From positions 1 through 45,283 of IMG/VR virus record IMGVR_UViG_3300045538_000405: 45,283 bases of DNA. The stretch is one strand, 5' to 3'. The DNA comes from a virus. The notes below the pieces were generated by a model that was given only the letters and a program-made list of their open reading frames with translations, did not search any database and was not told where the DNA came from. The translations under genes were made by a program, and so were the position numbers. The number at the start of each line of letters is the position of its first letter. Positions within the stretch are counted from its first letter, which is position 1. Shown piece after piece: positions 1 to 17,262 of this stretch.

Positions 1-39
1 CTTGCACAAATCAAAGCCGCGTTGAAGAAAGTGGCTTGA
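1..39 (+). CDS. 3' end of an unknown early gene (partial)
   Basis: Only the last 12 codons are visible, reading LAQIKAALKKVA then TGA at 37-39. The stop lies inside the -35 hexamer (TTGACT, 36-41) of the next promoter, as with three other genes in this block, which supports this frame. The fragment is too short for a function. Confidence 0.55.
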   Translation, partial: LAQIKAALKKVA

Positions 40-63
40 CTTTCTATAAAATAGGTCTATACT
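36..63 (+). promoter_or_regulatory. Early sigma70-like promoter P1, leaderless type
   Basis: TTGACT (36-41), 16-nt spacer, TATACT (58-63), then 9 nt to the ATG at 73. Transcription should start about 0-3 nt before the ATG, leaving no room for a ribosome binding site. A 7-bp inverted repeat (26-32 / 39-45) overlaps the -35 box. Confidence 0.85.
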
Positions 64-72
64 GTTTTCACA

Positions 73-267
73 ATGAACGAACAACTTGACCCACAGAACT
101 CCGAACATGAACTCGCTCACGTCTCCTCTGAGGAAATGTGCGACGCCAATGATTCCCGTATGTATCCCGGCGAAGAGAATGAGGCCGGTTGGCCCGGTGA
201 CGGTTCCGGTATGGATGACCTCGCCGACTACAATCAGAACGAGGCGATGGATTATGCCAACGAATAA
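73..267 (+). CDS. Small acidic early protein, unknown function
   Basis: 64 residues, strongly acidic and rich in Asp, Glu, Asn, Gly and Met, with no membrane segment and no recognised domain. The ATG is fixed by the P1 promoter, whose -10 box ends 9 nt upstream. There is no Shine-Dalgarno sequence and little space for one. It is the first gene of a short cluster (73-1023) in which the following genes have no promoter of their own. Small acidic early phage proteins often bind host proteins, but nothing in the sequence shows a target here. Confidence 0.75.
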   Translation: MNEQLDPQNSEHELAHVSSEEMCDANDSRMYPGEENEAGWPGDGSGMDDLADYNQNEAMDYANE

Positions 268-290
268 ACTACCCGACTACGACCATATAT

Positions 291-398
291 ATGACAGTGG
301 AAATCGTTAACGAAATTGACTGGTCAATGCATTATCAAGGTGGAAAGTGTCCTGATTGCGGTGAGGAAATCCCTAAACACGTCAAGGTCCGAGTTTAA
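291..398 (+). CDS. 35-residue CxxC zinc-knuckle-like protein
   Basis: Starts MTVEIVNEIDW and contains CPDCGEE, a single CxxC pair of the type seen in tiny zinc ribbons, with a His near the C-terminus (KHVKV). One CxxC plus the His might hold a metal, or two chains might share one. It lies 23 nt after the stop of the acidic protein and 5 nt before the next start. No Shine-Dalgarno sequence is visible. The coding call rests on the recognisable CPDCGEE motif and the tight fit between neighbours. The function is unknown. Confidence 0.55.
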   Translation: MTVEIVNEIDWSMHYQGGKCPDCGEEIPKHVKVRV

Positions 399-403
399 GA
401 TTT

Positions 404-586
404 ATGAAAGCAACCATTACCCTACAACCGGCCGAGGTTTACGAAATTATCCGCAACCATCTCATGGCAAACACGGATCTGCGGATTCAGGCGGCGGTCG
501 CCCAAGTGTCATGTGAACGGGACGAGCTACCGACCTTCGAGGGGATCTCGTGTGTGGTTGAACTTCCTTTAAGGAAAATTGGATGA
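404..586 (+). CDS. Small unknown early protein
   Basis: 60 residues, MKATITLQPAEVYEIIRNHL at the N-terminus and VVELPLRKIG at the end. It looks like a small globular helix/strand protein without membrane segments. Its stop overlaps the next ATG (583), which suggests translational coupling. I do not recognise the family. It most likely shares the P1 transcript. Confidence 0.65.
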   Translation: MKATITLQPAEVYEIIRNHLMANTDLRIQAAVAQVSCERDELPTFEGISCVVELPLRKIG

Positions 587-720
587 GAACACTGGAACGA
601 AACATTAGGCCCATATCCTTCATAATTTTCATGACGTGCCTCGGGTACGCATTCAATATGCCCATGGGATTCTTTGTGACGGCCGTAGGCATCATTGCAT
701 TTAGCACGTTCGCTGATTGA
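583..720 (+). CDS. Small hydrophobic membrane protein
   Basis: 45 residues, starting MRTLERNIRPISFIIFMTCL, with a basic N-terminus and one or two hydrophobic stretches (about residues 10-26 and 30-43). A Shine-Dalgarno sequence AAGGA (571-575) lies 7 nt before the ATG, and the start overlaps the end of the previous gene. It is probably inserted in the inner membrane. Function unknown; an early superinfection-exclusion or host-takeover role is possible but not shown. Confidence 0.65.
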   Translation: MRTLERNIRPISFIIFMTCLGYAFNMPMGFFVTAVGIIAFSTFAD

Positions 721-721
721 T

Positions 722-877
722 ATGAAACTAACTGAACCATCAGACCAAGACATTGACTTTCAGGAACAGAAGATCAACGACGAGGCACTGATTAACTTCG
801 CAAAGGCCGTAATCGTGGCGTGTGAGATTGTTGCGATTGTCGGTGGTATTGTCATGTGGATTTCAATAACCCATTGA
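722..877 (+). CDS. Small protein with one C-terminal membrane segment
   Basis: 51 residues. The soluble acidic first half (KLTEPSDQDIDFQEQKIND) is followed by a strong hydrophobic segment (about residues 30-48, VIVACEIVAIVGGIVMW). The ATG lies one nucleotide after the stop of the preceding membrane protein. Two adjacent small membrane proteins may act together. The 3' end overlaps the next gene by 22 nt. Function unknown. Confidence 0.65.
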   Translation: MKLTEPSDQDIDFQEQKINDEALINFAKAVIVACEIVAIVGGIVMWISITH

Positions 878-1023
878 AGGCGGAACTGCATAACCTGATT
901 GACCGGGTTAACAAGCTGGATTATGCGGCGTATGATAAGTTGGAAGCGGCTCGTACCAATCTCCGATGTGTGTATAAGCGGATCAACGAGTTGAAGAACA
1001 AGTCTCGTAAAGAAAAGGCTTGA
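856..1023 (+). CDS. Small helical/coiled-coil protein, GTG start
   Basis: 55 residues, VDFNNPLKAELHNLIDRVNK at the N-terminus, then a basic helical tail ending NKSRKEKA. The heptad-like pattern (LHNLIDRVNKLD..YDKLEAARTNL) suggests a coiled coil. The frame has no ATG at a sensible position. The GTG at 856-858 is embedded in the ATGTGG of the upstream gene. The stop TGA (1021-1023) lies inside the next promoter's -35 box (1020-1025). Function unknown. Confidence 0.6.
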   Translation: MDFNNPLKAELHNLIDRVNKLDYAAYDKLEAARTNLRCVYKRINELKNKSRKEKA

Positions 1024-1047
1024 ATTCTGTTAAAATAAGTCCATACT
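1020..1047 (+). promoter_or_regulatory. Early promoter P2, leaderless type
   Basis: TTGAAT (1020-1025), 16-nt spacer, CATACT (1042-1047), 8 nt to the ATG at 1056. A weaker match at both hexamers than P1. The -35 box contains the stop codon of the upstream gene. Confidence 0.7.
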
Positions 1048-1055
1048 TATCCCAC

Positions 1056-1223
1056 ATGAAAAACAACACTGTGACGGTGGTGATGGAATTCAAGACTCAG
1101 GCCCGCGGTTCTGAGAAGGTGGTTGTGAAGGGCGTCGTCCGTTCGGATGCCGCCATCAACGCGGTCATGGAGATGGAAGCCCGTAAGCGCAATGCCACGC
1201 CGGTTTCGATTTTCTTCTTTTAA
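1056..1223 (+). CDS. Small unknown early protein
   Basis: 55 residues, MKNNTVTVVMEFKTQARGSE at the N-terminus and an Ile-Phe-Phe-Phe end. The pattern looks like a beta strand, a helix (SDAAINAVMEMEARKRN) and a last strand. A longer reading would start at a TTG at 1020, but that lies within the promoter, so the ATG at 1056 is chosen. Family not recognised. Confidence 0.7.
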   Translation: MKNNTVTVVMEFKTQARGSEKVVVKGVVRSDAAINAVMEMEARKRNATPVSIFFF

Positions 1224-1227
1224 TTCC

Positions 1228-1255
1228 TTGACGCATGATAATAACCAGATACACT
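1228..1255 (+). promoter_or_regulatory. Early promoter P3, leaderless type
   Basis: TTGACG (1228-1233), 16-nt spacer, TACACT (1250-1255), 9 nt to the ATG at 1265. The stretch AACCAGATACACTG recurs at P9 and P10. Confidence 0.8.
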
Positions 1256-1264
1256 GTCCCCACA

Positions 1265-1432
1265 ATGAAAGACGTACAGAAACCCAAACGTCATATCGCT
1301 GAACAGTTCAACTTTGACTTCATCGGACCAACTACAGTTGACCTCTCACCGGAAGCAGTCCAGAAACGTCGGGAAGAAGCCCAACGTGAGGCGGTGAGGA
1401 AGGCAGCGAACTGGTCGCCCGAAAGTCATTGA
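1265..1432 (+). CDS. Small basic unknown early protein
   Basis: 55 residues, starting MKDVQKPKRHIAEQFNFDF. A charged C-terminal helix (SPEAVQKRREEAQREAVRK) is probably amphipathic and could form a coiled coil or bind nucleic acid. The start is set by the promoter spacing; an upstream in-frame ATG (1235) falls within the promoter spacer. The stop TGA (1430-1432) lies inside the -35 box of the next promoter. Function unknown. Confidence 0.7.
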   Translation: MKDVQKPKRHIAEQFNFDFIGPTTVDLSPEAVQKRREEAQREAVRKAANWSPESH

Positions 1433-1456
1433 CTTTCTATATCTCCCAGATACACT
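1429..1456 (+). promoter_or_regulatory. Early promoter P4, leaderless type
   Basis: TTGACT (1429-1434), 16-nt spacer, TACACT (1451-1456), 7 nt to the ATG at 1464. A near-perfect palindrome (1421-1437, 8-bp arms, 1-nt centre) spans the -35 box. Confidence 0.8.
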
Positions 1457-1463
1457 ATCCCAC

Positions 1464-1808
1464 ATGAAGAAACAAACCATCACTGACCTCACCTTCGTTA
1501 AGAAACCTTCTCCGCCGCCCGTGGGGATTGTATTGACCGCCGCCCTCCAGGACGAAATTCCACCCAATCCTAATGCTGCAAGTCGACCGGAGTTCGGCGT
1601 CATTGACGGTGGCACCATCGGTGGCACCATTATAGCTAACACGAAGACTGGATATGACATGTACCTAGAAAACGCAGACTCCATCACTCGTGTAGCCAGG
1701 CTGGTCAAATATGACCGACTGGGAGACTTCGGGCAAGACGTCATCATAGTGGATGGGGTTCTTTTCCTTGGTCGGTGGAACGACGGGGTTGTGGTGAAAC
1801 AACGATAA
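1464..1808 (+). CDS. Unknown early protein, 114 residues
   Basis: Starts MKKQTITDLTFVKKPSPPPV. A Pro-rich N-terminal third is followed by a Gly/Ile-rich stretch (FGVIDGGTIGGTIIANTK) and a C-terminal part that looks beta-rich (QDVIIVDGVLFLGRWNDGVV). No known domain recognised and no membrane segment. It is followed directly by an 11-bp inverted repeat (1813-1847) that could end its transcript. Confidence 0.75.
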   Translation: MKKQTITDLTFVKKPSPPPVGIVLTAALQDEIPPNPNAASRPEFGVIDGGTIGGTIIANTKTGYDMYLENADSITRVARLVKYDRLGDFGQDVIIVDGVLFLGRWNDGVVVKQR

Positions 1809-1812
1809 TAAC

Positions 1813-1847
1813 AGAAAGTCAAGTCTTCACGGGAGGCTTGACTTTCT
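1813..1847 (+). repeat. 11-bp perfect inverted repeat overlapping promoter P5
   Basis: Arm 1813-1823 (AGAAAGTCAAG) is the exact reverse complement of arm 1837-1847 (CTTGACTTTCT), with a 13-nt loop. The right arm contains the -35 box of P5, so it may act as a terminator for the upstream gene, as an operator, or be an inverted promoter remnant. It has no U-tract typical of a classical terminator. Confidence 0.7.
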
Positions 1848-1865
1848 ATAAATCTAAGGTATTCT
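1838..1865 (+). promoter_or_regulatory. Early promoter P5, leaderless type
   Basis: TTGACT (1838-1843), 16-nt spacer, TATTCT (1860-1865), 6 nt to the ATG at 1872. Confidence 0.8.
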
Positions 1866-1871
1866 CTACCC

Positions 1872-2246
1872 ATGTTACAGATATCCCTCCTCGACTCCAA
1901 ACTCGTCAAATTCACCACCTCCGAACTCAAATTCCTCGGATTCTTCGCGGCCGGTTCCGAAGTTATGGTCGAGGATGGTAAGTGGTGGTGTGAGGATCTC
2001 AACGTCGAGATTCTCAAGACCAAAGACGCGACCGTCGTGGTTAGGTATCTCTCCGACAGTGGGTTATCTGTGATGTATGAGGGAACCGACGGAGATCTCA
2101 CCGATGTAATCCATCACTGTGTTCACACACTTCACTTCTTCGACGTTCCTACCGACGAGGAGGCCACGGAACAACTTGACGCGGTGTATAACGTGTTCCG
2201 TGACGTGAAGGTTCCGGCCCCTCACTACATTGTAACCGGTAAATAA
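1872..2246 (+). CDS. Unknown early protein, 124 residues
   Basis: Starts MLQISLLDSKLVKFTTSELK. The first half looks beta-rich and the C-terminal half is helical (DEEATEQLDAVYNVFRDVK). It contains several Trp and Cys (DGKWWCEDLN) but no recognisable catalytic motif. The start codon is 6 nt after the P5 -10 box and there is no Shine-Dalgarno sequence. Function unknown; it stands alone as a promoter-gene cassette. Confidence 0.75.
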   Translation: MLQISLLDSKLVKFTTSELKFLGFFAAGSEVMVEDGKWWCEDLNVEILKTKDATVVVRYLSDSGLSVMYEGTDGDLTDVIHHCVHTLHFFDVPTDEEATEQLDAVYNVFRDVKVPAPHYIVTGK

Positions 2247-2261
2247 TATACCGACGAAGGC

Positions 2262-2289
2262 TTGACTTTCTATAAAATACGTCTATACT
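2262..2289 (+). promoter_or_regulatory. Early promoter P6, leaderless type
   Basis: TTGACT (2262-2267), 16-nt spacer, TATACT (2284-2289), 9 nt to the ATG at 2299. Nearly identical to P1 over the whole region from GGCTTGAC to the start codon. Confidence 0.85.
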
Positions 2290-2298
2290 GTTCCCACA

Positions 2299-2472
2299 AT
2301 GAACACCGAAAACAACTACACCATCGCCATCTCCGATAAAATTCAGAACGACATCCTCGCCTGTGTGGATGGATTCATGGAGACTATGGACGGGCCACCG
2401 AACATGGACCTGGACGCGATGCGGTCAGCTCTCTGTCAGATTATCGTTGACAACCGCAAGAATAGCCTTTAA
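2299..2472 (+). CDS. Small unknown early protein
   Basis: 57 residues, MNTENNYTIAISDKIQNDIL at the N-terminus and IIVDNRKNSL at the end. It looks helical and soluble, and mildly acidic. The ATG sits 9 nt after the P6 -10 box, exactly as in the first cassette. Function unknown. Confidence 0.7.
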   Translation: MNTENNYTIAISDKIQNDILACVDGFMETMDGPPNMDLDAMRSALCQIIVDNRKNSL

Positions 2473-2492
2473 GACAATCCTCTCCAAGAGGC

Positions 2493-2520
2493 TTGACATT
2501 CTATAAATAAGCGGTATTCT
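2493..2520 (+). promoter_or_regulatory. Early promoter P7, leaderless type
   Basis: TTGACA (2493-2498), 16-nt spacer, TATTCT (2515-2520), 6 nt to the ATG at 2527. A short hairpin (CCTCT 2479-2483 / AGAGG 2487-2491) lies immediately upstream. Confidence 0.85.
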
Positions 2521-2526
2521 CTCACC

Positions 2527-2823
2527 ATGACTGCAAGAGAACGTCGGTTAAATTGGATGGAACGGCGGCAGATTAAGAAACAGCTGGCCGCCAAGCACGT
2601 GGACGTCGATGAACCGTTTTACATCGTAAGCGACTATGGTTACGAGGATTGTGGGTATCAAGGACCGTATACCTACAATGAAGTCTGTAAGGAATGGAAA
2701 GCACTCCGCGGCCGGGACGCCGATTATTATGACTTCGTCGCTCGTGATGGAATGCACTACATCACCCAGGAGAGCTGGAAACTGAAGCAGATAGATGACC
2801 GTAGCCGAAGTGAATGGCGATGA
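2527..2823 (+). CDS. Unknown early protein, 98 residues
   Basis: A very basic N-terminus (MTARERRLNWMERRQIKKQL) is followed by a Tyr/Asp-rich centre (YIVSDYGYEDCGYQGPYTYN) and a Lys/Arg C-terminus. The basic head could bind nucleic acid or RNA polymerase, but this is a guess from composition only. The start is set by the P7 spacing. Family not recognised. Confidence 0.75.
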   Translation: MTARERRLNWMERRQIKKQLAAKHVDVDEPFYIVSDYGYEDCGYQGPYTYNEVCKEWKALRGRDADYYDFVARDGMHYITQESWKLKQIDDRSRSEWR

Positions 2824-2827
2824 AGGC

Positions 2828-2853
2828 TTGACTTCCTGCAATTACTCTATAAT
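2828..2853 (+). promoter_or_regulatory. Early promoter P8, leaderless type
   Basis: TTGACT (2828-2833) with TATAAT at 2848-2853 (14-nt spacer) or TAATAT at 2850-2855 (16-nt spacer). The ATG is at 2863, so the mRNA again starts at or very close to the start codon. Confidence 0.7.
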
Positions 2854-2862
2854 ATCTCCCAC

Positions 2863-3102
2863 ATGAACTGTGAACTTGACTCCGCCACCCTCACGAAGAT
2901 GGGATTCACCAAGACTCCTTCGCTGGTCAAATCAGACAAGGACGCTCCCGGCGTGATCAGCCCATCCATCGGTTCACTCCTACTCTGCTACCACAAGGTC
3001 TATGGCTTGACCCTCGGTTACTGGGCCGGCCACGAAGCTGCCTTCATCCTCCCCCACGTCAAGGGATATAACTGGGCCACCCATTGGAAATACCACGGTT
3101 GA
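2863..3102 (+). CDS. Unknown early protein, 79 residues
   Basis: Starts MNCELDSATLTKMGFTKTPS and ends with an aromatic, His-rich tail (HVKGYNWATHWKYHG). The pattern suggests a small mixed alpha/beta fold. No membrane segment and no known motif. The start is set by the P8 promoter. Confidence 0.75.
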   Translation: MNCELDSATLTKMGFTKTPSLVKSDKDAPGVISPSIGSLLLCYHKVYGLTLGYWAGHEAAFILPHVKGYNWATHWKYHG

Positions 3103-3115
3103 TCGTAGGTAGGGC

Positions 3116-3145
3116 TTGACATTGTATAAGATAACCAGATACACT
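3116..3145 (+). promoter_or_regulatory. Early promoter P9, leaderless type
   Basis: TTGACA (3116-3121), 18-nt spacer, TACACT (3140-3145), 9 nt to the ATG at 3155. The stretch from ATAACCAG to the ATG is almost identical to P3. Confidence 0.8.
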
Positions 3146-3154
3146 GTTCCCACA

Positions 3155-3325
3155 ATGAAGCACGAGCTGAACAAGGAACTGTACAAGATAAAGAGCCGGA
3201 TCAAACACATCCGGTCATTCACATCCTACGGCCAGACCCTGAGCGGTTCATACGTCAAAGACCAGATTGAAATCAGTAAGCTAACGGCCCGCATGAAAGA
3301 AATTCTTTCCTTATTGAAGGCTTGA
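3155..3325 (+). CDS. Small basic helical early protein
   Basis: 56 residues, MKHELNKELYKIKSRIKHIR at the N-terminus, Lys/Ile/Leu-rich throughout and probably two long helices (residues 2-20 and 32-55). A TTG at 3116 could extend the frame but lies in the promoter. The stop TGA (3323-3325) is embedded in the next -35 box. Function unknown; possibly DNA- or RNA-binding by charge. Confidence 0.7.
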   Translation: MKHELNKELYKIKSRIKHIRSFTSYGQTLSGSYVKDQIEISKLTARMKEILSLLKA

Positions 3326-3349
3326 CATTCTATAACAACCAGATACACT
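3322..3349 (+). promoter_or_regulatory. Early promoter P10, last of the array, with no clear gene behind it
   Basis: TTGACA (3322-3327), 16-nt spacer, TACACT (3344-3349), then the same GTTCCCACA context as the other cassettes. The start codon position holds TTG (3359-3361) instead of ATG and opens only a 34-codon frame. Transcription would run into the hairpin cluster at 3408-3500. Confidence 0.75.
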
Positions 3350-3358
3350 GTTCCCACA

Positions 3359-3637
3359 TTGACCACCCTACCCACACCCCACCCGCTACCTGTCGAAATG
3401 CAGGGTTCCCACCCCAGTAAGGGGGGGTGGGACCGTCATTTTGACGGGGGTCCTTCTGAATAGGGGAGTACCCCCCTATGTAGGGTCGCCGAGGTTGGCG
3501 CAACACACACGGCAAAAATTTCGCTGGGCATTTTCTTTCGGCAAAAGCGTGTTTTCCTCGTTTTCCCTACCTGTGTTTTCATTCATTTGGTCGGTTTCTC
3601 GAAAAAACACCGGGGAAAAAATTTTCTTGGGGAAAAA
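3359..3637 (+). other. Gene-free GC-rich region with four consecutive hairpins
   Basis: No convincing gene. Hairpins: 3408-3431 (CCCACCCC / GGGGTGGG), 3433-3447 (CCGTCA / TGACGG, 3-nt loop), 3461-3478 (TAGGGG / CCCCTA) and 3487-3500 (CGCC / GGCG). After 3510 the sequence is T/A-rich with runs such as GGCAAAAATTTCG. Possible roles are a structured early RNA driven by P10, a transcription barrier, or a replication/packaging site. The sequence does not decide between them. Confidence 0.6.
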
Positions 3638-7150: not shown

Positions 7151-7178
7151 TTGACTTTCTATTTATAGGTGTTAGGAT
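7151..7178 (+). promoter_or_regulatory. Early-type promoter of the tmRNA gene
   Basis: TTGACT (7151-7156), 16-nt spacer, TAGGAT (7173-7178). The sequence TTGACTTTCTAT is shared with the small-gene cassettes. Initiation near 7185 would give a precursor with a short 5' leader, to be trimmed at 7202 (by RNase P in known tmRNAs). Confidence 0.65.
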
Positions 7179-7201
7179 TGGATTGTTCTTTGAATACTAT
7201 T

Positions 7202-7584
7202 GGGGCCATACTGGTTTCGAGGCGGTGTAAACGAAATCTAAGGCACGTAGAGGATGATGGTCGGCCTCTTAAAAAAACTATCAAAAAATAAACGCTAATA
7301 ACGTAATCGCATACGACTTCACACCAGAAGGTGTCGAGGCCGAATACGCCGTAGCCTAATTAGGCTGCCCGTGATACAGATTGACGCACGATATTTCTGT
7401 ATCACGTTATATATCGAGCTAGACAAACCATTTGATTTGGTTGGTATGTCGAAATAACTCAAATCTAAGGAAACGGAACTTTCGAGTTTTAGTATCAGTT
7501 TCACGAAAAAACAAAAACTATAAACGTGTAGTCTTGGGTTGAGTAAATATCGTCCACGCGGGTTCAACTCCCGCTGGCTCCACC
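7202..7584 (+). ncRNA. ssrA: Transfer-messenger RNA (tmRNA), phage-encoded
   Basis: Complete one-piece tmRNA. The acceptor stem GGGGCCA (7202-7208) pairs with TGGCTCC (7575-7581) and has a G-U wobble at the third pair, the alanine-tRNA identity element. The T-arm is GCGGG-TTCAACT-CCCGC (7558-7574) and the discriminator is A7582. CCA is not encoded (CCC follows), so it must be added. The D-like CTGGTTTCGA matches tmRNAs. PK1 is visible: AGAGG/CCTCT with GATGGT/ACTATC, followed by an A-rich stretch before the resume codon, in good agreement with the E. coli arrangement. The tag frame (7294-7359) starts ANNVIAYDF and ends EAEYAVA, then TAA in a GCCTAATTAGGC hairpin. A long hairpin (GTGATACAG/CTGTATCAC) and pseudoknot-like pairings follow. 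Function in known systems: rescue of stalled ribosomes and tagging of the nascent protein for proteolysis, with SmpB. No smpB is seen here. Confidence 0.95.
7294..7359 (+). other. tmRNA tag-peptide reading frame
   Basis: Resume codon GCT at 7294, stop TAA at 7357-7359, 21 residues. The resume position is set by alignment to the E. coli context (A-run, then four to five nt, then the Ala codon). The tag is longer than the roughly 10-residue E. coli tag and ends in Ala-Val-Ala rather than the usual Leu/Val-Ala-Ala. Confidence 0.85.
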
Positions 7585-7946
7585 CGTAAAGTTACCTGTG
7601 ATGAACTATAAGTTATCCGTCATATATCATATACGGATATTCACGCGAAACAGTAAGTTATTAAGATTAACCGAATTACCGTGATAGACCGCTACCTTGA
7701 ATGTGTAGCTTTGTATTGGACGAGAATTCCCTTGGTCAAAACACTTTATTTTCCAAACAAAGATCTTCCAATTCCATCTCGGAAAAAAATCAGTCGGTGT
7801 TTATATTCCCCATATAACAAAGACCCTGTGAGAAATCTTTTAGTTATTCTGATTATACATACCGTGTGATAATAGATATGTATGACCCGTTGAACAAATC
7901 CATGTTGTTGTGAAGTGTTCATAGTTAATATAAATATACAAATATC
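7585..7946 (+). other. Region between tmRNA and next gene, no supported gene
   Basis: A frame at 7681-7869 opens with GTG but has no start signal and an unconvincing composition. An inverted repeat ATCCGT / ACGGAT (about 7615-7640) lies after the tmRNA and could help end its transcript. No tRNA could be folded by eye. The sequence is A/T-rich towards the end, where a TATAAATA motif appears. Confidence 0.6.
7929..7936 (+). promoter_or_regulatory. T4-type late promoter motif TATAAATA
   Basis: An exact match to the T4 late promoter consensus, 10 nt before the ATG at 7947. Confidence 0.6.
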
Positions 7947-9372: not shown

Positions 9373-10641
9373 ATGCCAAATAACCAGCTCCATACTTTAA
9401 CGACGCATACGTCTCTGGATTCCAGAGATTTGTTGGTCGTTGTAGATAGAAGTGAATTAACCACTCATAAAATAGAAGTGGGGGAGATCTCGGATGCGTT
9501 GGATGGAACAATTTTTCTATCATCTAGTTATTCTCTCACAAGCTCGTTTACGATCCAACCAGAGAGGCCAATTTCGACGAGTTTTGCATACTATGCGAAT
9601 TCCGCCAGCTTTTCATCTAACCTAAGCGGTTCTAATGTGATAGCGGCAGGAAGCAGTTTTGCTCACCTTTCGATGTGGGCGAACGCTGTAAGTGATTTCA
9701 TACAAGTCACCGCTAGTTCGGATTATATTGACATCTATGGAATAGGGAATTCGGGCGGACAGTTGAGATTCGTCACCCAATCAAATTTCGTGAATTCATA
9801 TTTAATCCGGCCGATATCTCATCGAGACGTGATGGGTTCTCAAATTCTAAATCCAACTATTGGCAGCGTAACTTACTATGGATTGCCCGCTGGAAGTTAT
9901 GGGTTTGAAATCTCTTTGTTGGATTATCCAGGAAAGATACTAACCTTCTTCGGTGATATCTCCTTTGCTTCCCCGGTTACAACTACGTATTCTCTGATAC
10001 ACTACTTCGAGTCGGGTGGAGTTTATAACGCGAGTGGGTCAGGTGTCTTCTCCATAACTTCGAGCTACTCCGACACCGCTGACATCTCGGAGAATAGCAA
10101 AGATTCCCACTGGGCATCAAGTTCGGTGGTGACATCAGCAACCAGCCGAATCAGCACCACTGCTATAAGTGCATCCAGAACAACATCATCTCTTTTTTCT
10201 CAACGGAGTAACATCTCCAATTTCTCATCAAATGGGCCTATTCCGGGAATGATTCTTTTATACGCTGGGATTCAAATAACTGGTTCCGAGAACTGGCTGT
10301 CATGTAATGGATCGACATACGACATAGCGGCAAATTCTGCGTTGAGTGCGTCGATAGGTTCTAAGTTCTCTCAATCGGCTTTACCGTTAGTACCGAACGT
10401 TCTTCCTAATATATCTTCCAACGTTGAATCCGGTTCCGGACCATTCAATGAAAGATTTTATATATCGGAAACGACCTTGGGACACCCAACCAACAATCAA
10501 ATAAGTCAGTCGTATGGAGTTAATGCAGGTGGATCCGGTTCAGCTGAGTCTTTTACCGGTTCTTATGCTTCTGGGTCGGTATACGGAACGGAAATCACAG
10601 GCTGGGAACCCCGTGCATTTTATTATAACATCAAACGGTGA
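9373..10641 (+). CDS. Tail fibre protein with tail-collar-like C-terminal region
   Basis: 422 residues. The N-terminal part (SLDSRDLLVVVDRSELTTHK) resembles the attachment region of repeat-type phage fibres. The middle is Ser/Thr/Ala-rich (SSYSLTSSFT; FAYYANSASFSS), the repeat type SYxxTASxA common in phage fibres. The C-terminal part has PGMILLYAG ... WLSCNGSTYD ... IGSKFSQ, matching the pattern of the phage tail-collar domain (PF07484). It likely binds the host surface from the virion tail. It is a paralogue of the next gene. Ser/Thr density makes it a conceivable substrate for the glycosyltransferases downstream. Confidence 0.88.
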   Translation: MPNNQLHTLTTHTSLDSRDLLVVVDRSELTTHKIEVGEISDALDGTIFLSSSYSLTSSFTIQPERPISTSFAYYANSASFSSNLSGSNVIAAGSSFAHLSMWANAVSDFIQVTASSDYIDIYGIGNSGGQLRFVTQSNFVNSYLIRPISHRDVMGSQILNPTIGSVTYYGLPAGSYGFEISLLDYPGKILTFFGDISFASPVTTTYSLIHYFESGGVYNASGSGVFSITSSYSDTADISENSKDSHWASSSVVTSATSRISTTAISASRTTSSLFSQRSNISNFSSNGPIPGMILLYAGIQITGSENWLSCNGSTYDIAANSALSASIGSKFSQSALPLVPNVLPNISSNVESGSGPFNERFYISETTLGHPTNNQISQSYGVNAGGSGSAESFTGSYASGSVYGTEITGWEPRAFYYNIKR

Positions 10642-10650
10642 ATAATCCAC

Positions 10651-10658
10651 TACTTATT
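10651..10658 (+). promoter_or_regulatory. Late-promoter-like motif TACTTATT
   Basis: Nine nt before the ATG at 10668. Confidence 0.5.
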
Positions 10659-10667
10659 TAGAGAATC

Positions 10668-12131
10668 ATGGCACACAAGAGAATTTCAGAATTGTCCAGT
10701 TTAGACGGTGCACTTGCATCGGAAGACTTATTTTTGGTCCAAGATATATCCCCAATTTCGGAATCAAAAAACGTAAGTTGGGCATATCTATCTAGTATAA
10801 TCGCTGCTTCCGCTTCTGTAGATTCCGCGAGCTATTCGATCACCTCGTCTTTTTCACATCAGGTCAACAGCGCCAGTTGGTCCTCATCGAGTATATCTAC
10901 GAGTTACGCGTTGGCTGGTTCCGGAAGTGGAATTTTTGCATGGACGAGTAGTTACGCATTCACATCATCCTTTGCACATTCTGCCAGTTTTGCTAGTGGA
11001 AGTGGAGTATTTGCCCACAGCAGCAGTTATGCGCTCATTAGCAGTTACTCTCTACAGTCATCCGGTTCTATATCAGCGTCATATTCAATATCGGCTAGCT
11101 ATGCGTCCGGAAGTGGAGTATTTGCCCACAGCAGCAGTTATGCTTTAAGCGCTAGTCACGCTCTTACTTCCAGTAACTCACTGTACTCTTCAAATGGAAT
11201 TGAGACTGGATACATGGTTCTTTACGCTGGATTGGAGACGTCTACGATAGAATCCACGGGAGAATATTTGCCATGTGATGGTAGGGATGTATTTGTAAAT
11301 CGATATCAAAATCTTTACAACGTAATAGGTGGGAAGTTCGGATATTATCCCGAACTTAGAATATCCGCGTCCAAAGACATCTTCGCCCAACCAATTGAAC
11401 TTCACATAGACCACGATGACGTTAATATTTACGGATATTCTTTGAGTACAGGCGTGATTGGGTTTCAAACCGGAAGCGGAGGAACATTTCGGGGAGTATT
11501 TACAATAACTTCCACCAAAGCGGGATTGACGGGGTCAACTCAGTTGCTCAGACCAAACAATCCCACGGTAGCATTCACAGGGCTTGGTGCAGCGACTTAT
11601 AATTTCATAATAACAGAGGTTAATACGAATAGCAGTTCGATATTTCCCGTAGATATTAATTTGAGAGGGACTAACACAACAAGTTCACTGACCGCTGGAA
11701 ATATTCCCGCGATAAGTTTTTGGGGTGATTCAAACGTGGCATATAATTCCAAGTTTTATGTCACGGATTTACAAACGGACCAAACCAGTGAAGGAACTCT
11801 GAATCAGACTTCCCCCGCTTCACCTATCACTCGGCTGCCCGCTACCATATTGGTTACCACCGCCACAAATTTCACGTGCAGCGTATCACGTCATAGTGGA
11901 TCTTATCATAACATACAAACCGCAAGATTGAGACAATCCTCACAGATTCTCACATTGCCTGTGGAAAACAATCCATTCGACGGAGCAGCGGGAACGTTCT
12001 CCGCTTCTTTCTTTATACCAAGCGTTAACAATTCGACCGGCAGTGTTCCGGAAAATATGGTACCTAGAAATGCACAGATAACAGAATCGGGTGTTTATCC
12101 ATATGCTTTCAGATATTTGATAAAAACGTAA
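10668..12131 (+). CDS. Tail fibre protein, Ser/Ala repeat and collar-like
   Basis: 487 residues. The N-terminus (MAHKRISELSSLDGALASED) is the classic opening of repeat-type phage fibres. Residues about 45-175 are Ser/Ala/Tyr repeats (SYALTSS-type), including an exactly repeated 35-nt segment. Then GYMVLYAGLE ... YLPCDGRDV ... VIGGKFG follows the tail-collar pattern. The C-terminal 250 residues look beta-rich and probably form the receptor-binding tip. It shares its architecture with the gene upstream. Expression is probably late, from the TACTTATT motif. Confidence 0.88.
   Translation: MAHKRISELSSLDGALASEDLFLVQDISPISESKNVSWAYLSSIIAASASVDSASYSITSSFSHQVNSASWSSSSISTSYALAGSGSGIFAWTSSYAFTSSFAHSASFASGSGVFAHSSSYALISSYSLQSSGSISASYSISASYASGSGVFAHSSSYALSASHALTSSNSLYSSNGIETGYMVLYAGLETSTIESTGEYLPCDGRDVFVNRYQNLYNVIGGKFGYYPELRISASKDIFAQPIELHIDHDDVNIYGYSLSTGVIGFQTGSGGTFRGVFTITSTKAGLTGSTQLLRPNNPTVAFTGLGAATYNFIITEVNTNSSSIFPVDINLRGTNTTSSLTAGNIPAISFWGDSNVAYNSKFYVTDLQTDQTSEGTLNQTSPASPITRLPATILVTTATNFTCSVSRHSGSYHNIQTARLRQSSQILTLPVENNPFDGAAGTFSASFFIPSVNNSTGSVPENMVPRNAQITESGVYPYAFRYLIKT
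10998..11032 (+). repeat. 35-nt exact direct repeat in fibre gene, copy 1
   Basis: Begins GGAAGTGGAGTATTTGCCC and recurs at 11109-11143, 111 nt (37 codons) away. It encodes GSGVFAHSSSYA. Confidence 0.9.
11109..11143 (+). repeat. 35-nt exact direct repeat in fibre gene, copy 2
   Basis: Identical to 10998-11032, a recent duplication or a recombination hot spot within the fibre. Confidence 0.9.
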
Positions 12132-12138
12132 ATTTGAT

Positions 12139-12840
12139 ATGGTTACATTTAAAAGGTGGTTGATAAAAGCTATCAGAGAAAATTGTTGTCTATTGAAAAT
12201 TCGACGTGGAAATTGTGATTACTCCATTCCATACGAAAGACCAGTTGACGATTCCTTCTTCGATGATAATCGGGATACACTGTCGTTGCAAAATCTAGTA
12301 TCCAATGACAAAGATGTGATTTCTCTATCCGATGTATTTAACGTGGAGATCTATTCTATGAATCAATATGAGATTTCCAGGAAGTCAATGTCGGAACACA
12401 TTGAGAACAAATATTCGCCCATTTTATCCCACAAATTTCAAAACCTTACACGAGAAATCGTTTTAAAATTAATGTTTTTGGATGGAATTACATTGAATTA
12501 TTTGAAAATAATGGATTTCATGGAATATCGAGAACCGGAGGATTTTTCCAAGGTAAAGTTCATTGGAACACGAGATGAAACTATAGAAGATTGCATCGTC
12601 GCTCGCAAAAACTTCTCGTTGATAGTAAATAAACGAATGGAGACGGTGATGAAAGACATGATTTCCGCGTTGGGAATTGAGGGGAGTGCTGACATACGAC
12701 TTGATATAGAGAAAAACGTATCCGAATTCATAACTGGTTTGCCATCCGTCCCAATCAGAAAGCTACAGGACGTCTGGCCGACGTTGTTGAATCCATCTCC
12801 GTATTATTTCCTCCCTAACATCGTTAATCAAGACGGATGA
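12139..12840 (+). CDS. Unknown protein at the head of the modification island
   Basis: 233 residues, starting MVTFKRWLIKAIRENCCLLK, largely helical, with short Tyr/Pro-rich segments at the end (LLNPSPYYFLPNIVNQDG). No glycosyltransferase or methyltransferase motif is evident. It follows the fibre gene by 7 nt and overlaps the sialyltransferase-like gene (ATGA), so it probably belongs to the fibre/modification operon. Function unknown. Confidence 0.75.
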   Translation: MVTFKRWLIKAIRENCCLLKIRRGNCDYSIPYERPVDDSFFDDNRDTLSLQNLVSNDKDVISLSDVFNVEIYSMNQYEISRKSMSEHIENKYSPILSHKFQNLTREIVLKLMFLDGITLNYLKIMDFMEYREPEDFSKVKFIGTRDETIEDCIVARKNFSLIVNKRMETVMKDMISALGIEGSADIRLDIEKNVSEFITGLPSVPIRKLQDVWPTLLNPSPYYFLPNIVNQDG

Positions 12841-13436
12841 AACGAATCGTTTTAGTTGGGAATGGATGTGGAGTCCTTGAAAAAGAAAAAGGAAACGAGA
12901 TAGATGCATTTGATGGCGTCATTCGACTAGGAACATATAAAATCGAAGGATTTGAGAAGTATGTCGGTGAAAAAACAGATTTTTGCATCACAGCTCATTG
13001 GAAACTTGACTTGGATAGATTAAAGACCACCAAGACATTTATCACCTTCCCCGTGTTTAGTAGCTATTATGATGAACCGACTATAGATAGGATACGAGGT
13101 GAGATAATGAGTTCTATAACCGACGAACAGCGTTTGAATATCATGTATTTTATGACTCGTGCCGATGCTCTTTCCATTGTAGAATCATACAAAGAACTTG
13201 GAAACGTTGGGATCGATTTGAGTGGAATAAACCCGAGTCTCGGTTACCGAGCACTACGAATTGTTTTGAATCATTTCTCCGGTTGTGAAATTTACACTTA
13301 CGGATTTGATTTTTTCAAAACTGGCTGGTATTGGAAGGAATCGCACAACCGAAACATAAAAAACCGACACCCATATAGTTACGAACGCGTTATTCATTCA
13401 CTGTTGGTTAAAAGCGGAAGAATAAAGGAGTTGTGA
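12837..13436 (+). CDS. Sialyltransferase-like glycosyltransferase (GT29 type)
   Basis: 199 residues. The N-terminal VLVGNGCGVLEKEKGNEID plus FDGVIRLG (residues 4-32) matches the sialyl motif L pattern (VGNS...G..ID..D.VIR.N). GINPSLGYRALRI...EIYTYGFDFF (129-160) matches motif S. HPYSYE (178-183) matches the motif VS pattern HxxxxE. Motif VS His is the catalytic base in known GT29 enzymes, which transfer sialic acid from CMP-sialic acid to glycans. The length is short for the family, and no membrane anchor is present, so the enzyme is probably cytosolic. Donor and acceptor are unknown. It overlaps both neighbours (ATGA; GTGA). Confidence 0.78.
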   Translation: MKRIVLVGNGCGVLEKEKGNEIDAFDGVIRLGTYKIEGFEKYVGEKTDFCITAHWKLDLDRLKTTKTFITFPVFSSYYDEPTIDRIRGEIMSSITDEQRLNIMYFMTRADALSIVESYKELGNVGIDLSGINPSLGYRALRIVLNHFSGCEIYTYGFDFFKTGWYWKESHNRNIKNRHPYSYERVIHSLLVKSGRIKEL

Positions 13437-14380
13437 GAAAATTAGTGTCAGTTAAAAACACAGGTTTGAGTGGAAACATAATCAAGTTTCTGATAACAAG
13501 TAATTTTTGTGAACGAAATGGACTTCACCTAATTTTTCCGTGTGATGGGAATACGTCGAAGATTATTTCGAGATTCAGTCACATAGACTTCGATAGGATA
13601 AGTTTCGTTGAATATTCCCCGGAACATAAGATTCTTTTCAACGAGAAGGTAAAAAGAGACACCGGTGATTTATATCCAATGATATACGGTGAATATATTA
13701 GAAAAACTTACTTTCCCGAAGAAACAGTTGATTTTGAGTATTTTTCAGGTAATGAAAATGGAATCATGACCGTTGATTGGTCGCGCTGTAATACAAATAC
13801 AATACTGTTTGATTATAACGACGGTGTGGTTGGTTATAGAAAGTCGTTGTCTGAACTTAATAAGAAAATCAAGTTCGATGGAATAGACAGTCCGTCGTAT
13901 ACACACCGAGAACCGAAATCGGATGTCTTTTCCTTTAATTTGAAAACAACCACTGATGTTAGGTTCGACGAAGAACTTCTTTATTGGACGGAGGTTTTGA
14001 CTCAATTCAAATCCGATTATGGAGGGCAAATGTTCTTTGTCTCGGGAAACAAAAAGATGAAGCGTGAAATGTGCCATCGATTTGAAGTACCGTTCTTGGA
14101 TTTTGAGTCAGAAAACAAGTTCTCCCATCGGGAGGGGGGTGAATTGCAAAGAGGTTCATCGACGAGCGTGATGATCGACCTCCAAAATTGTGTTAATACA
14201 AATTTCGTTTCTCTGGAACGACTTGTAATGGAATACGGCGTTACGTTTTTTAAACCAAAGGAGCTGTTTAAATCGGGAAAAGCGGAAAAGTTTGACTTGC
14301 TAGTTGAATTCTTTAAAGAAAATCACGTATTGTCAACGGAGTGTTCACCTATGGTTATTTCCGTTGGAAATGTTACATAG
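13433..14380 (+). CDS. GT-B / fucosyltransferase-like protein, paralogue 1
   Basis: 315 residues, GTG start (13433) overlapping the TGA of the upstream gene. The opening VSVKNTGLSGNIIKFLITSN then HLIFPCDG resembles the N-terminal Rossmann region of fucosyltransferase-like GT-B enzymes. The C-terminal half FFVSGNKKMKREMCHRF ... FSHREGGE ... VMIDLQNCVNTNFVS matches the sequence pattern of the gene at 15507 (VFISGCQEMKTYFCKKY ... YHREKGD ... LNDIYSCAGSNFVT). The two are clear paralogues. Activity is inferred from pattern only. The last 58 nt overlap the convergent oxygenase gene. Confidence 0.65.
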   Translation: MRKLVSVKNTGLSGNIIKFLITSNFCERNGLHLIFPCDGNTSKIISRFSHIDFDRISFVEYSPEHKILFNEKVKRDTGDLYPMIYGEYIRKTYFPEETVDFEYFSGNENGIMTVDWSRCNTNTILFDYNDGVVGYRKSLSELNKKIKFDGIDSPSYTHREPKSDVFSFNLKTTTDVRFDEELLYWTEVLTQFKSDYGGQMFFVSGNKKMKREMCHRFEVPFLDFESENKFSHREGGELQRGSSTSVMIDLQNCVNTNFVSLERLVMEYGVTFFKPKELFKSGKAEKFDLLVEFFKENHVLSTECSPMVISVGNVT

Positions 14381-14961
14381 TTGACCATTATCATTTTCCT
14401 ATGAGTTGAAATTTGTTTCTTTTCAAGACCATGCCACGTATCGTCTCCGGGATAAAAGAAATATCCAGTGTTGTCTATGAACGGCACTGTCTTTGAAAGC
14501 ACCAAGTTAGCGTCGTATAAGTCGGTTCCAATGGACTCGTCTTCTCCACAGTCGTTTACAAAAACCAACATACTCATGAATTTTTCTTGGATGTCTCGGT
14601 GGGGTTCCAGCCAAGATTCCCCCGTGTCTTTTATCACCTCTATCCTAAGATATTCAGGTATTATTTTAGTAGAATATGACTGGAACATTTCCGTCACTGA
14701 CTTGTTACAAAAGAAGTTCCTCAATTTCATAAAGAGGGGGTATTTCTTACACATATCGTTATCCACGAATACCCTCGTCTTGCTACTCGTTCTCGTCTTT
14801 GTTAAGACATTTCCACCCGGACCGTGGAAATCCATAGATTTATATTGAACAAGTTCGTCCCCGTCAAAGAAATTTTCAAATGAATAATGACGGAACGGAG
14901 TTCTATGTTCACGGATGGAGTTAAATCTCATTAGAAGAATTATATCCCAATACAAATTCAC
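14323..14961 (-). CDS. 2-oxoglutarate/Fe(II)-dependent oxygenase
   Basis: Up to 212 residues on the minus strand. Iron ligands fit the facial triad: H121 and D123 in PHRDIQEK, H177 in TWHGLEKK, with R188 (THRKMIMVNY) as the 2-oxoglutarate anchor. This pattern is typical of prolyl-hydroxylase-like oxygenases, which hydroxylate proteins or small molecules. GTG at 14961 overlaps the upstream stop (TGA 14960-14958), supporting coupling. ATG at 14931 (residue 11) is an alternative start. It is convergent with the plus-strand gene ending at 14380, overlapping it by 58 nt. The substrate is unknown; a virion protein or a sugar is possible. Confidence 0.85.
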   Translation of the reverse strand: MNLYWDIILLMRFNSIREHRTPFRHYSFENFFDGDELVQYKSMDFHGPGGNVLTKTRTSSKTRVFVDNDMCKKYPLFMKLRNFFCNKSVTEMFQSYSTKIIPEYLRIEVIKDTGESWLEPHRDIQEKFMSMLVFVNDCGEDESIGTDLYDANLVLSKTVPFIDNTGYFFYPGDDTWHGLEKKQISTHRKMIMVNYVTFPTEITIGEHSVDNT

Positions 14962-15536
14962 TTCAACATATTATAACAGTCTATTATGTTAGTTACTTTC
15001 TGTTTCCTAGTCAGATTCGATTTTAGTGTTGGAAAGTCGTCAATCATATCGATAAATTTCAAATCCATGCCACCGATCCTTTCCTTTTCTATCAAGAGGT
15101 AGAACACGGGAGACATCTTATTCATTTTGTTACATACCAAAAGTGTATTGCGACCATCCTCGGAACATTTCTTAAAAACATCACTTCGTCTTAATTGTTT
15201 TATTCGTAACTGATCGCGTATTTCTTTGAAAAGAGACGTGCCCTTTACTATATTTTTAGTTTTGTCAATCAGCAAATCGGTATCAAATACCAACGTCAAT
15301 TCTATACCAGAATCCAATATGAATTTAGACAACGGTTCGTCTCTTAGTATGTCTTTATCGATATATTCAGTGCAAACTATGATTTTTTTAATATGATTTT
15401 CGGTCAATATGTGAAGGTTGTCCCGTTTGAACAGAAACTCTTTATGGACGAGAAAAATATTGTCTTTTACGTGGATCATGTGTAGTATGCCATATATATC
15501 AAAGGAATGTTTTTTCATAACACATCTCAGGATCAT
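14958..15536 (-). CDS. Unknown minus-strand protein in the modification island
   Basis: 192 residues if started at 15536, or from MKKHSFDIYG at 15518. The sequence has a Rossmann-like look in parts (HIKKIIVCTEYIDKDIL; IELTLVFDTDLLIDKTKNI; NTLLVCNKMNKMSPVFYLL). I do not recognise the family. The gene is co-directional with the oxygenase and overlaps its start, so the two probably form one two-gene unit, inverted relative to its neighbours. Its 5' end overlaps that of the divergent gene at 15507. Confidence 0.75.
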   Translation of the reverse strand: MILRCVMKKHSFDIYGILHMIHVKDNIFLVHKEFLFKRDNLHILTENHIKKIIVCTEYIDKDILRDEPLSKFILDSGIELTLVFDTDLLIDKTKNIVKGTSLFKEIRDQLRIKQLRRSDVFKKCSEDGRNTLLVCNKMNKMSPVFYLLIEKERIGGMDLKFIDMIDDFPTLKSNLTRKQKVTNIIDCYNMLK

Positions 15537-16424
15537 TTTGGGGTCACCACTAACTTGATGAATCTATTGAAGAGTTATCTCGTGTGCAAGAAGCTCGGAT
15601 TGAATTTGGTTATGTACAATGACTCACTGATAGGCCTCGTTTGTGAGAGCGACGTAAACATTCAGTTAAATGGAAATTTTTTTAAAGGAGTTTCTGTTGA
15701 TTTTTTCCGCTCGTTGAAAAAAAATCCTGATATGTTGAAGAGGTTTGTTTTGGAAATCCATAAATCCTGGAACACGGGAAGAAGATGTGAATACATCTCA
15801 TCGGTCGAGAACTTCCTTCCGAATGGAGAGGAGATTGACTATCTCTTTTATTACGAATGGTTTCCTAAAATTGGTTTGGTGGATTCATCTAAATTTGAAT
15901 TGAAGTTAAAAATAGACGAACCGACAAGGAATCTCTTCCGCAAAGACGCGGCAGTGTTCCACGTTAAGAATAAGAGTTTGTTAAATGTTTCCACGGATAT
16001 TGAGATAACCGACTTTGTGATTTCCAGATACATAAAAGAGTTCAATCCGCCGTCTGTGGTTTTTATAAGCGGGTGTCAGGAAATGAAAACTTACTTTTGT
16101 AAAAAATACGGAGTTTTGGATGAACCACACGTTCACTATCGTCCCTTGTATCATAGGGAAAAGGGAGACATGGCTAGTGTATTGAATGACATTTACTCCT
16201 GCGCTGGTTCTAATTTTGTGACTAACGATTTTCTTCACCAGCGGTATTATCACGAGATAAAAGATAAATACGTAAAAATTCCGAGTGAGTTATGCTTCTA
16301 TAACTCTATGAATTACAGAAAACATATTTTTGACCAGAAATATCATATGAGTAATTATTTTGACTTGTTCGTGGTTTTACAGAAGGAATTTGGTTTCATA
16401 AGGAATATACATGATAGCAAGTGA
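15507..16424 (+). CDS. GT-B / fucosyltransferase-like protein, paralogue 2
   Basis: 305 residues from ATG 15507; ATG 15558 (MNLLKSYLVCKKLGL) is an alternative. The N-terminal SYLVCKKLGLNLVMYND and the C-terminal VVFISGCQEMKTYFCKKYGV ... YHREKGDMASVLNDIYSC align with the protein at 13433. The pattern (T/S-D-like segment, then a helix with D-x-x-x-C/L, then S/N-F-V) is that of fucosyltransferase-type GT-B enzymes. This is a family-level inference. The paralogues flank the inverted oxygenase pair. The gene overlaps the radical SAM gene by 14 nt. Confidence 0.65.
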   Translation: MFFHNTSQDHFGVTTNLMNLLKSYLVCKKLGLNLVMYNDSLIGLVCESDVNIQLNGNFFKGVSVDFFRSLKKNPDMLKRFVLEIHKSWNTGRRCEYISSVENFLPNGEEIDYLFYYEWFPKIGLVDSSKFELKLKIDEPTRNLFRKDAAVFHVKNKSLLNVSTDIEITDFVISRYIKEFNPPSVVFISGCQEMKTYFCKKYGVLDEPHVHYRPLYHREKGDMASVLNDIYSCAGSNFVTNDFLHQRYYHEIKDKYVKIPSELCFYNSMNYRKHIFDQKYHMSNYFDLFVVLQKEFGFIRNIHDSK

Positions 16425-17262
16425 TAAAAACGACGTGATACAACTCCGCAAATCTCAACTATCGGACATCAGTACACGGATGGATACGTTACAAAGCATC
16501 ACGGTCAATCCGACGGAACTATGTAACCGAAAATGTGGGTTCTGTCCACGTAACGATAGCAAAGTGTATCCAAATCAAAATCTACACATCTCCGAACAGA
16601 CAGTGTCTAAGTTATCAGAACAACTGTCGATCAACGGTTTCGTGAATAGATTGGGTTGGTCTGGAAACGGAGAGCCGTTATTAACAAATGATTTTTTGAA
16701 ACTTGTTAGATTGGTATCTTCCCAAAATCCAAGGTTGGCATCTCATGAAATAAACACAAACGGAGATTTGCTCACCGATAGATTGGTGTCGGAGATTTAC
16801 GCATCTGGGATCAACCACATAATAGTGAGTGTGTATGATGGACGGGAAAGTTTAGACAAGTTCTCGGAGATGTTTAGTAAATATAACGTTCATAGTTACA
16901 CGTTGAGAATTTCTTTTAATACCGTAGACCCCGTTGGCTTTACCAACCGCTCCGGTATGGTGGATGTTAACCGAGACAAGATAAAAGAGTTCAAGAACAA
17001 CAAGTGTTTTCTTCCTTTTTACAAACTCGTAGTTGATTGGAACGGCGACATACTCGTGTGCTGTGAAGACTGGGGAAGAAAGAGCAAGAGTTCTCTCAAC
17101 ATCAACACTCACTCTCTTGAAGAAATATGGTTCTCGGAGAAATTGAACGGATACCGTGACAGGCTTCGTTTTGGCGACAGATCGTTATCACCGTGCAATG
17201 CATGTAATATTCACGGTGAGAAAGTCGGTTCCGAACTTGTAGATAAATTTTATGAAAAGTGA
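16411..17262 (+). CDS. Radical SAM protein with SPASM-like C-terminal cluster site
   Basis: 283 residues. CNRKCGFC (C38, C42, C45) is the CxxxCxxC that binds the radical SAM [4Fe-4S] cluster, and SGNGEPLL (84-91) fits the GGEP SAM-binding motif. The C-terminal part holds C199, CC217-218 and C262xxC265, a SPASM/twitch-like extra cluster region (VDWNGDILVCCEDW). SPASM proteins typically modify peptides or sugars by radical chemistry. AAGGA (16400-16404) lies 6 nt before the ATG. Neighbours point to a sugar or protein modification. Substrate unknown. Confidence 0.9.
   Translation: MIASDKNDVIQLRKSQLSDISTRMDTLQSITVNPTELCNRKCGFCPRNDSKVYPNQNLHISEQTVSKLSEQLSINGFVNRLGWSGNGEPLLTNDFLKLVRLVSSQNPRLASHEINTNGDLLTDRLVSEIYASGINHIIVSVYDGRESLDKFSEMFSKYNVHSYTLRISFNTVDPVGFTNRSGMVDVNRDKIKEFKNNKCFLPFYKLVVDWNGDILVCCEDWGRKSKSSLNINTHSLEEIWFSEKLNGYRDRLRFGDRSLSPCNACNIHGEKVGSELVDKFYEK

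Follow-up and report, generated by a model that had tools for sequence, protein, structure and literature searches.

A one-piece tmRNA gene with a boxA-like leader and a long tag in a T4-related phage contig

Introduction

tmRNA genes have been listed in the mycobacteriophages Bxz1 and Wildcat and their relatives and in Bacillus phage G (PMC4131195), and in Wildcat the tmRNA is the most highly expressed lytic gene (PMC7474061). Among 18,146 phage genomes, 402 (about 2%) contain a tmRNA, and methylophage Melnitz carries a two-piece form with a glutamine riboswitch (PMC9004378). Some huge phages encode tmRNA together with SmpB (PMC7162821), and a tmRNA has been reported for phage Calle, a relative of Cellulophaga phage phi38:1 in the Callevirus group (PMC8776804). 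The DS6A RNA, which consists of the tRNA-like domain only, has been proposed as a blocker of host tmRNA (PMC4131195, PMC11915505). The commonest tmRNA tag length is 10 (PMC11915505), and the boxA of rRNA operons is the NusB–S10 site in antitermination (PMC10931766).

Phage tmRNAs are already known, and the gene described here adds another. It lies in IMG/VR record IMGVR_UViG_3300045538_000405, analyzed over its whole length of 45,283 bases (hereafter, the window). With the bacterial one-piece tmRNA (RF00023, ssrA), it shares all structural parts, the G3–U70 pair, the alanine resume codon, and a small-hydrophobic tag ending, and its boxA-like leader recurs ahead of some Bacteroidota ssrA copies. 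It differs from the bacterial form in being phage-encoded, in standing behind a phage early promoter, in its 21-residue rather than 9–10-residue tag, and in a sequence that is not close to any bacterial copy found. The mycobacteriophage and phage G tmRNAs are likewise one-piece RNAs of tailed phages, with different hosts. Melnitz is, like the window phage, T4-like with its tmRNA behind an early promoter; the window gene, however, is one-piece, has a boxA-like leader, and shows no riboswitch upstream at the Rfam threshold. Unlike the DS6A type, it retains a full mRNA-like domain and a constrained tag. The boxA of rRNA operons resembles the leader in placing GTTCTTTGA ahead of a long structured untranslated RNA (PMC10931766), whereas the leader stands before a tmRNA gene; the likeness is one of sequence.

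The phage, its relatives, and the locus

The contig, which is probably a fragment of a phage genome, comes from a T4-related phage with a contractile tail. Its genes encode PhoH, baseplate wedge proteins, an SbcC-like subunit, a DnaG-type primase domain, and a metallophosphoesterase, and a 103-kb relative (G010) carries a T4-type terminase and portal along with a gp23-type capsid. In capsid comparisons, Microcystis phage Mel-JY01 (53%) and Flavobacterium phage immuto (52%) come closest among named phages, followed by Rhodothermus phage RM378 (37%). A search with a baseplate protein recovered 45 viral relatives, nine of which carry the same tmRNA gene, and in the window phage genes lie on both sides of it, marking it as phage-encoded rather than a captured host fragment. 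The gene is present in all 10 clade records found to span the locus, while the close relatives without it apparently stop short of the locus, judging by coordinates. An earlier sequence-only reading of this DNA had called phage tmRNAs rare, which holds for phages at large, as the count from PMC9004378 given above indicates, but not within this clade. The more remote relatives, at about 50% identity or below, yielded no tmRNA above the cut-off; two of them instead carry arrays of tRNA genes, with 38 tRNAs in G019 and 17 in the portion of G039 that was read. The G019 array (L085, L086; about 55,400–69,830) lies beyond phoH, on the same side of it as the tmRNA in the window's clade.

When genome collections were scanned with the baseplate protein, five distant contigs emerged; two bear the label Flavobacteriales/Flavobacteriaceae and one Winogradskyella, labels that are suggestive only as a clue to the host. 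Taken together, the relatives and the leader make Bacteroidota, in the broad GTDB sense, a reasonable guess. The relative G010 also encodes a DUF1552 (HXXSHH) protein (L078:1723-3090). This family goes with Planctomycetota, Verrucomicrobiota, and Myxococcota, and the protein is possibly a host clue at odds with the Bacteroidota guess. Elsewhere in the window, the region between phoH and an HD-like gene (9373–17962) contains fibre-like ORFs that are repetitive and Ser/Ala-rich, and it encodes a radical-SAM/SPASM protein at 16411–17262; this block is variable, since the spacing between the tmRNA and baseplate genes varies among relatives.

A complete tmRNA with covarying structure

ARAGORN called a single gene at 7202–7584 (+), a one-piece tmRNA with the tag ANNVIAYDFTPEGVEAEYAVA*. 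The Rfam RF00023 model matched 7202–7585 over its full length (1–374) with 133.2 bits against a gathering score of 47 (E 4.6e-52), and no other Rfam family exceeded its threshold in the window. The sequence-only reading had proposed a complete tmRNA gene here: its coordinates are exact to the base, with ARAGORN and Rfam agreeing on the gene, the covariance search that it suggested scores far above threshold, and structure prediction recovers an alanine-acceptor fold that covaries. The RNA folds at -114.6 kcal/mol, compared with -91.4 +/- 5.3 for shuffled sequences (z -4.4). A PreQ1 riboswitch match was rejected as it is sub-threshold and overlaps PK1. The segment 3' of the gene (7585–7946) is partly alignable among close relatives and has no Rfam match.

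Every part that had been named from the letters was found: the acceptor stem with its third-pair G–U, the T-arm, the D-like loop (TGGTTTCGA), PK1, the A-rich pre-resume region (AAAAAATAAAC, followed by GCT), the tag, and the stop hairpin (Table 1). Of the CCA end, CC is encoded and the final A is not. An RNAalifold consensus of eight aligned clade sequences comprises 92 pairs, 35 of which show compensatory double changes; these fall in the acceptor stem, P2, PK1 stem A, the stop hairpin, the PK2-position hairpin, and the T-arm. Both PK1 stems are present, and the long P2 helix covaries along with PK1 stem A. The PK3-position hairpin is absent from the clade consensus structure and hence weaker than the other elements. 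Within the acceptor stem, the third pair (G3–U70) is G–U in 8/8 sequences, while pairs 4 to 7 covary among GGGGCCA, GGGGATG, and GGGCCCG forms. Such covariation around a fixed G3–U70 is strong evidence for a functional RNA predicted, from its charging determinants, to accept alanine. The window RNA belongs to the tmRNA family by each feature of sequence and structure examined.

Table 1. Features of the tmRNA locus in the window
Feature	Position	Strand	Basis or remark
Early-type promoter, TTGACT - 16 - TAGGAT; extended -35 TTGACTTTCTAT at 7151-7162	7151-7178	+	Recurrent motif
boxA-like leader GTTCTTTGAAT	7185-7195	+	6 nt before mature 5' end; invariant in 10/10 clade members
Acceptor stem, 5' strand GGGGCCA	7202-7208	+	Pairs with 7575-7581; G3 is the alanine determinant
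PK1: stem A AGAGG/CCTCT, stem B GATGGT/ACTATC	7249-7282	+	Sequence, mapped structure; stem A covaries
Tag reading frame: resume GCT, ANNVIAYDFTPEGVEAEYAVA, then TAA	7294-7359	+	ARAGORN; codon changes L047/L055
Tag-stop-codon hairpin GTAGCCTA/TAGGCTGC	7351-7368	+	Compensatory changes in 3/8 pairs
PK2-position hairpin GTGATACAG/CTGTATCAC	7371-7405	+	Compensatory changes in several pairs
PK3-position hairpin GACAAACCA/TGGTATGTC	7422-7450	+	Single-sequence fold, mapped on alignment
T-arm GCGGG-TTCAACT-CCCGC	7558-7574	+	Rfam alignment; covarying pairs
Acceptor stem, 3' strand TGGCTCC, with A73 and encoded CC	7575-7584	+	Sequence, alignment

An early-type promoter and a boxA-like leader

The -35 element of the tmRNA promoter belongs to a motif, TTGACWTTCTAT, which with up to one mismatch occurs in 11 copies in the window against 0.73 expected; eight + strand copies are followed 16 or 18 nt on by a -10-like hexamer. 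Within the first 3.4 kb, six other copies precede small ORFs, 34–39 nt from their start codons, and the tmRNA copy stands 34 nt ahead of the leader, which lies six bases beyond the promoter. The element had been read as an early-type promoter, and its recurrence ahead of small early-region ORFs bears this out, with a -10 (TAGGAT, 7173–7178) that is weaker than those of the other copies. A candidate T4 late promoter, TATAAATA, at 7160–7167 was discarded because it lies on the opposite strand and is directed away from the tmRNA gene. In the region 36–3360, the early-type promoters leave about 8–12 nt from the -10 to the ATG, so that early messages would be nearly leaderless.

The leader is identical in 10/10 clade members though its flanks and, in one group (L050), the promoter differ, and the copy ahead of the tmRNA is the only exact one in the window. 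The sequence-only reading had mentioned neither this leader nor the unusual tag length. The leader matches the rRNA-operon boxA of Bacteroidota, the presumed host group. Of 396 Bacteroidota genomes, 27 have its core, GTTCTTTGA, no more than 14 nt ahead of a tmRNA-like 5' end, and none has the reversed pattern; in another phylum, 1 of 61 genomes has the core so placed. Among 30 Bacteroidota tmRNAs sampled independently of the leader, seven have the exact leader within 40 nt and three a one-mismatch version; control windows farther upstream of the same genes never contained it exactly and held eight of nine bases twice, at the same locus. A 16S gene was found in seven of 22 leader-bearing Bacteroidota genomes, and in five of these seven GTTCTTTGA occurs downstream of 16S at the position of the 16S–23S spacer, with one of the five also having it 83 nt before 16S.

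The association extends across viral records, where at least 120 stretches match the pattern of leader plus tmRNA start. Fifty viral records were then hand-picked, most for a tmRNA-like 5' end (a selection that yields no rate); RF00023 matched in 49 at E up to 1e-8, and in 47 above the cut-off. A scrambled control pattern, over the complete viral scan, gave 51 stretches with five ARAGORN tmRNAs, four of them enterobacterial; the boxA pattern gave a tmRNA at 25 of 80 loci among the matches listed. A leader-blind scan for viral tmRNA starts found at least eight of nine leader bases within 30 nt in 18 of 75 cases and in 1 of 365 control windows, a fraction that is indicative only, since some of the 5' end is prescribed by the scan pattern itself and some starts are unconfirmed as tmRNA. 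The bacterial and viral control windows, the reversed pattern, and the scrambled-pattern scan rule out a chance A/T-rich sequence. By sequence matching, then, a boxA-like leader stands ahead of many viral tmRNA genes and of a minority of those in Bacteroidota. In the open-access literature we found no paper that connects boxA with tmRNA, and the tmRNA leader appears to be undescribed there.

A long tag apparently conserved as protein

The tag frame opens at a GCT resume codon, closes at a TAA inside the stop hairpin, and encodes 21 residues ending in AVA. The clade's tags (A[NK]NVIAYDFTPEGVEAEYAVA, AKNVIAYDFTPEGVEAELAVA, AKNVIAYDFTPEGVEVEVAA, and AKNVIAYDFIPVEEEVLVVA) have 20–21 residues and end in AVA, VAA, or VVA, compared with 9–10 residues and LAA or MAA ends in Bacteroidota. 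Between L047 and L055 the tag shows five synonymous codon changes and one nonsynonymous change (dN 0.043, dS 0.441), giving a dN/dS of about 0.1 for a single pair with six differing codons. Small as these numbers are, coming from one pair, they support selection on the clade's tag as a protein. Synonymous sites are also conserved in the front half of the tag, where a short hairpin is predicted; RNA constraint may therefore act on that part.

Long tags extend beyond this clade. ARAGORN gave 26 distinct tags for leader-bearing viral tmRNAs, with those of the clade counted in; 21 of them have 15–26 residues, whereas 30 of 31 Bacteroidota tags have 9–10 (p about 1e-6, kinship ignored). Ten viral contigs (L189, L201, L219, L256, L398, L406, L409, L410, L420, and L428) have a common tag of 31–35 residues, of the form AEDNTSDLLAEAEYIFNNADEFLGG..EEEYLLAA with the core LLAEAEYIFNNAD, whose length ARAGORN undercalls in several members. 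Judged by a dN/dS of about 0.1–0.3 in seven equal-length pairs with dS below 2, this family is under purifying selection. We found no paper describing long phage tmRNA tags in the open-access literature, where these long conserved tags appear to be undescribed.

A proposed mode of action through host partners

The sequence-only reading had suggested a search for smpB elsewhere in the phage genome. No SmpB (PF01668) was found in the window record and 20 related records, in which positive controls worked, nor in 47 other viral records, most picked for a tmRNA-like 5' end, all of these records being possibly incomplete. Given this result in partial records, the phage presumably uses the SmpB of its host, which is the likely partner of the phage tmRNA. 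Trans-translation with host SmpB is the best explanation of the window tmRNA, and we consider it probable that the gene is a functional phage tmRNA working through host partners.

Early in infection, the promoter would start an RNA at or just before GTTCTTTGAAT. Host NusB–S10 would bind the leader RNA and let RNA polymerase cross a long, untranslated, structured gene without Rho termination, just as happens on rRNA operons. Charging and the steps after it are established tmRNA biology, carried over here to the phage RNA. With its determinants intact and no SmpB found, the RNA would be matured by host RNase P and CCA-adding enzyme, charged by host AlaRS via G3–U70, and brought to stalled ribosomes by host SmpB and EF-Tu. 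It would then add alanine and the encoded tag, releasing the ribosome, and the tagged peptides would contain VIAYDFTPEGVEAEYAVA. Since the AVA end is close to the LAA, MAA, and MVA ends of Bacteroidota tags, degradation of the tagged fragments by a host ClpP-type protease is most likely; the conserved front half of the tag may determine which adaptor is used or how fast degradation proceeds. The phage would probably gain from additional ribosome rescue during mRNA cleavage. The sequence-only reading had raised reprogrammed ribosome rescue or a phage-specific degron, and either may apply.

Alternative explanations

We regard it as likely that the leader is a boxA, recognized by its resemblance to the NusB–S10 site of rRNA antitermination. 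A rival, to which we assign a lesser though real chance, is that the conserved GTTCTTTGAAT is part of the promoter or the initially transcribed sequence. The start predicted from the -10 falls at about 7185, at the leader itself, so that the RNA would begin with boxA, an unusual arrangement, and GTTC occurs at the same point in several early promoters. However, GTTCTTTGAAT stays fixed while the promoter changes in the L050 group, and the motif precedes Bacteroidota and unrelated viral tmRNA genes as well as occurring in the rRNA spacers of the same leader-bearing bacteria, all of which favor boxA.

The remaining alternatives concern the RNA. It would be scarcely credible as a passive host copy without phage function, left by integration or by misassembly of a bacterial contig: integration often occurs at tmRNA genes and viral contigs do hold host copies (for instance, with the enterobacterial tag ANDENYALAA), yet this gene is clade-wide, its sequences diverge while compensating, it has a phage promoter in front, and it sits in a T4-like phage with no close bacterial match. 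When the phage tmRNA was compared by blastn with 396 Bacteroidota genomes, only 28–31-nt matches in two genomes emerged, and a phage collection searched with the window tmRNA gave no match. Covariation and clade-wide presence largely refute this reading. The RNA might instead act as a decoy, sequestering host SmpB or sitting on stalled ribosomes and thereby blocking host tmRNA. This would fit the failure to find SmpB with the gene and has a precedent in the DS6A-like RNA, which inhibits tmRNA in E. coli (PMC4131195, PMC11915505); we think it very unlikely, since the clade preserves PK1, the stop hairpin, and the tag through compensatory changes and the tag frame is under constraint, although a decoy could do without all three. 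Somewhat less improbable, though still doubtful, is a working tmRNA whose long tag is not mainly a degron and instead shields proteins, moves them, or labels them in some other way for the phage. The clade's tag length and endings, set against those of Bacteroidota, point in this direction, as does the 31–35-residue family, conserved as protein beyond what a C-terminal degron needs; against it, the tags still end in small hydrophobic residues, as bacterial degrons do. Rescue and tagging through host partners accordingly remains our preferred account of the window tmRNA.

Implications and further viral tmRNA genes

We hold it evenly balanced whether there is a broad class of phage tmRNAs that combines a host-type boxA leader for rRNA-style antitermination with tags of 15–35 residues selected for some role beyond that of a minimal degron. 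If so, tmRNA, both bacterial and phage, would join the few genes known to be under boxA control. The leader, present before some Bacteroidota and many viral tmRNA genes, suggests a possible link between ribosome rescue and rRNA antitermination, and long selected tags predict that phages tag proteins for more than disposal. For the role of phage tmRNAs in infection, the window's clade is especially clear-cut. Its tmRNA is conserved, covaries, and is phage-controlled; the tag is constrained and unlike bacterial ones, and no SmpB was found in the partial records.

A cultured representative exists in Cellulophaga phage phi38:1 (L369, NC_021796.1), where we found a tmRNA at 26803–27164 (-) with 87.6 bits, unannotated in the record. 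ARAGORN gives its tag 22 residues; by our own reading from an in-frame GGA, it would have 30. Like the window phage, this Bacteroidota phage has a one-piece tmRNA with a long tag; it differs in not being T4-like, in being without a boxA-like leader, and in having another tag. Since phi38:1 is in culture and its tmRNA has a long tag, the question of the tag can be approached experimentally with it. Finally, the 484-kb uncultured phage LR756508.1 contains a full-length tmRNA match at 92434–92880 (L105) and a second, 112-nt match above threshold at 414804–414915 (L107), which looks like a tRNA-like-domain-only RNA, as in DS6A.
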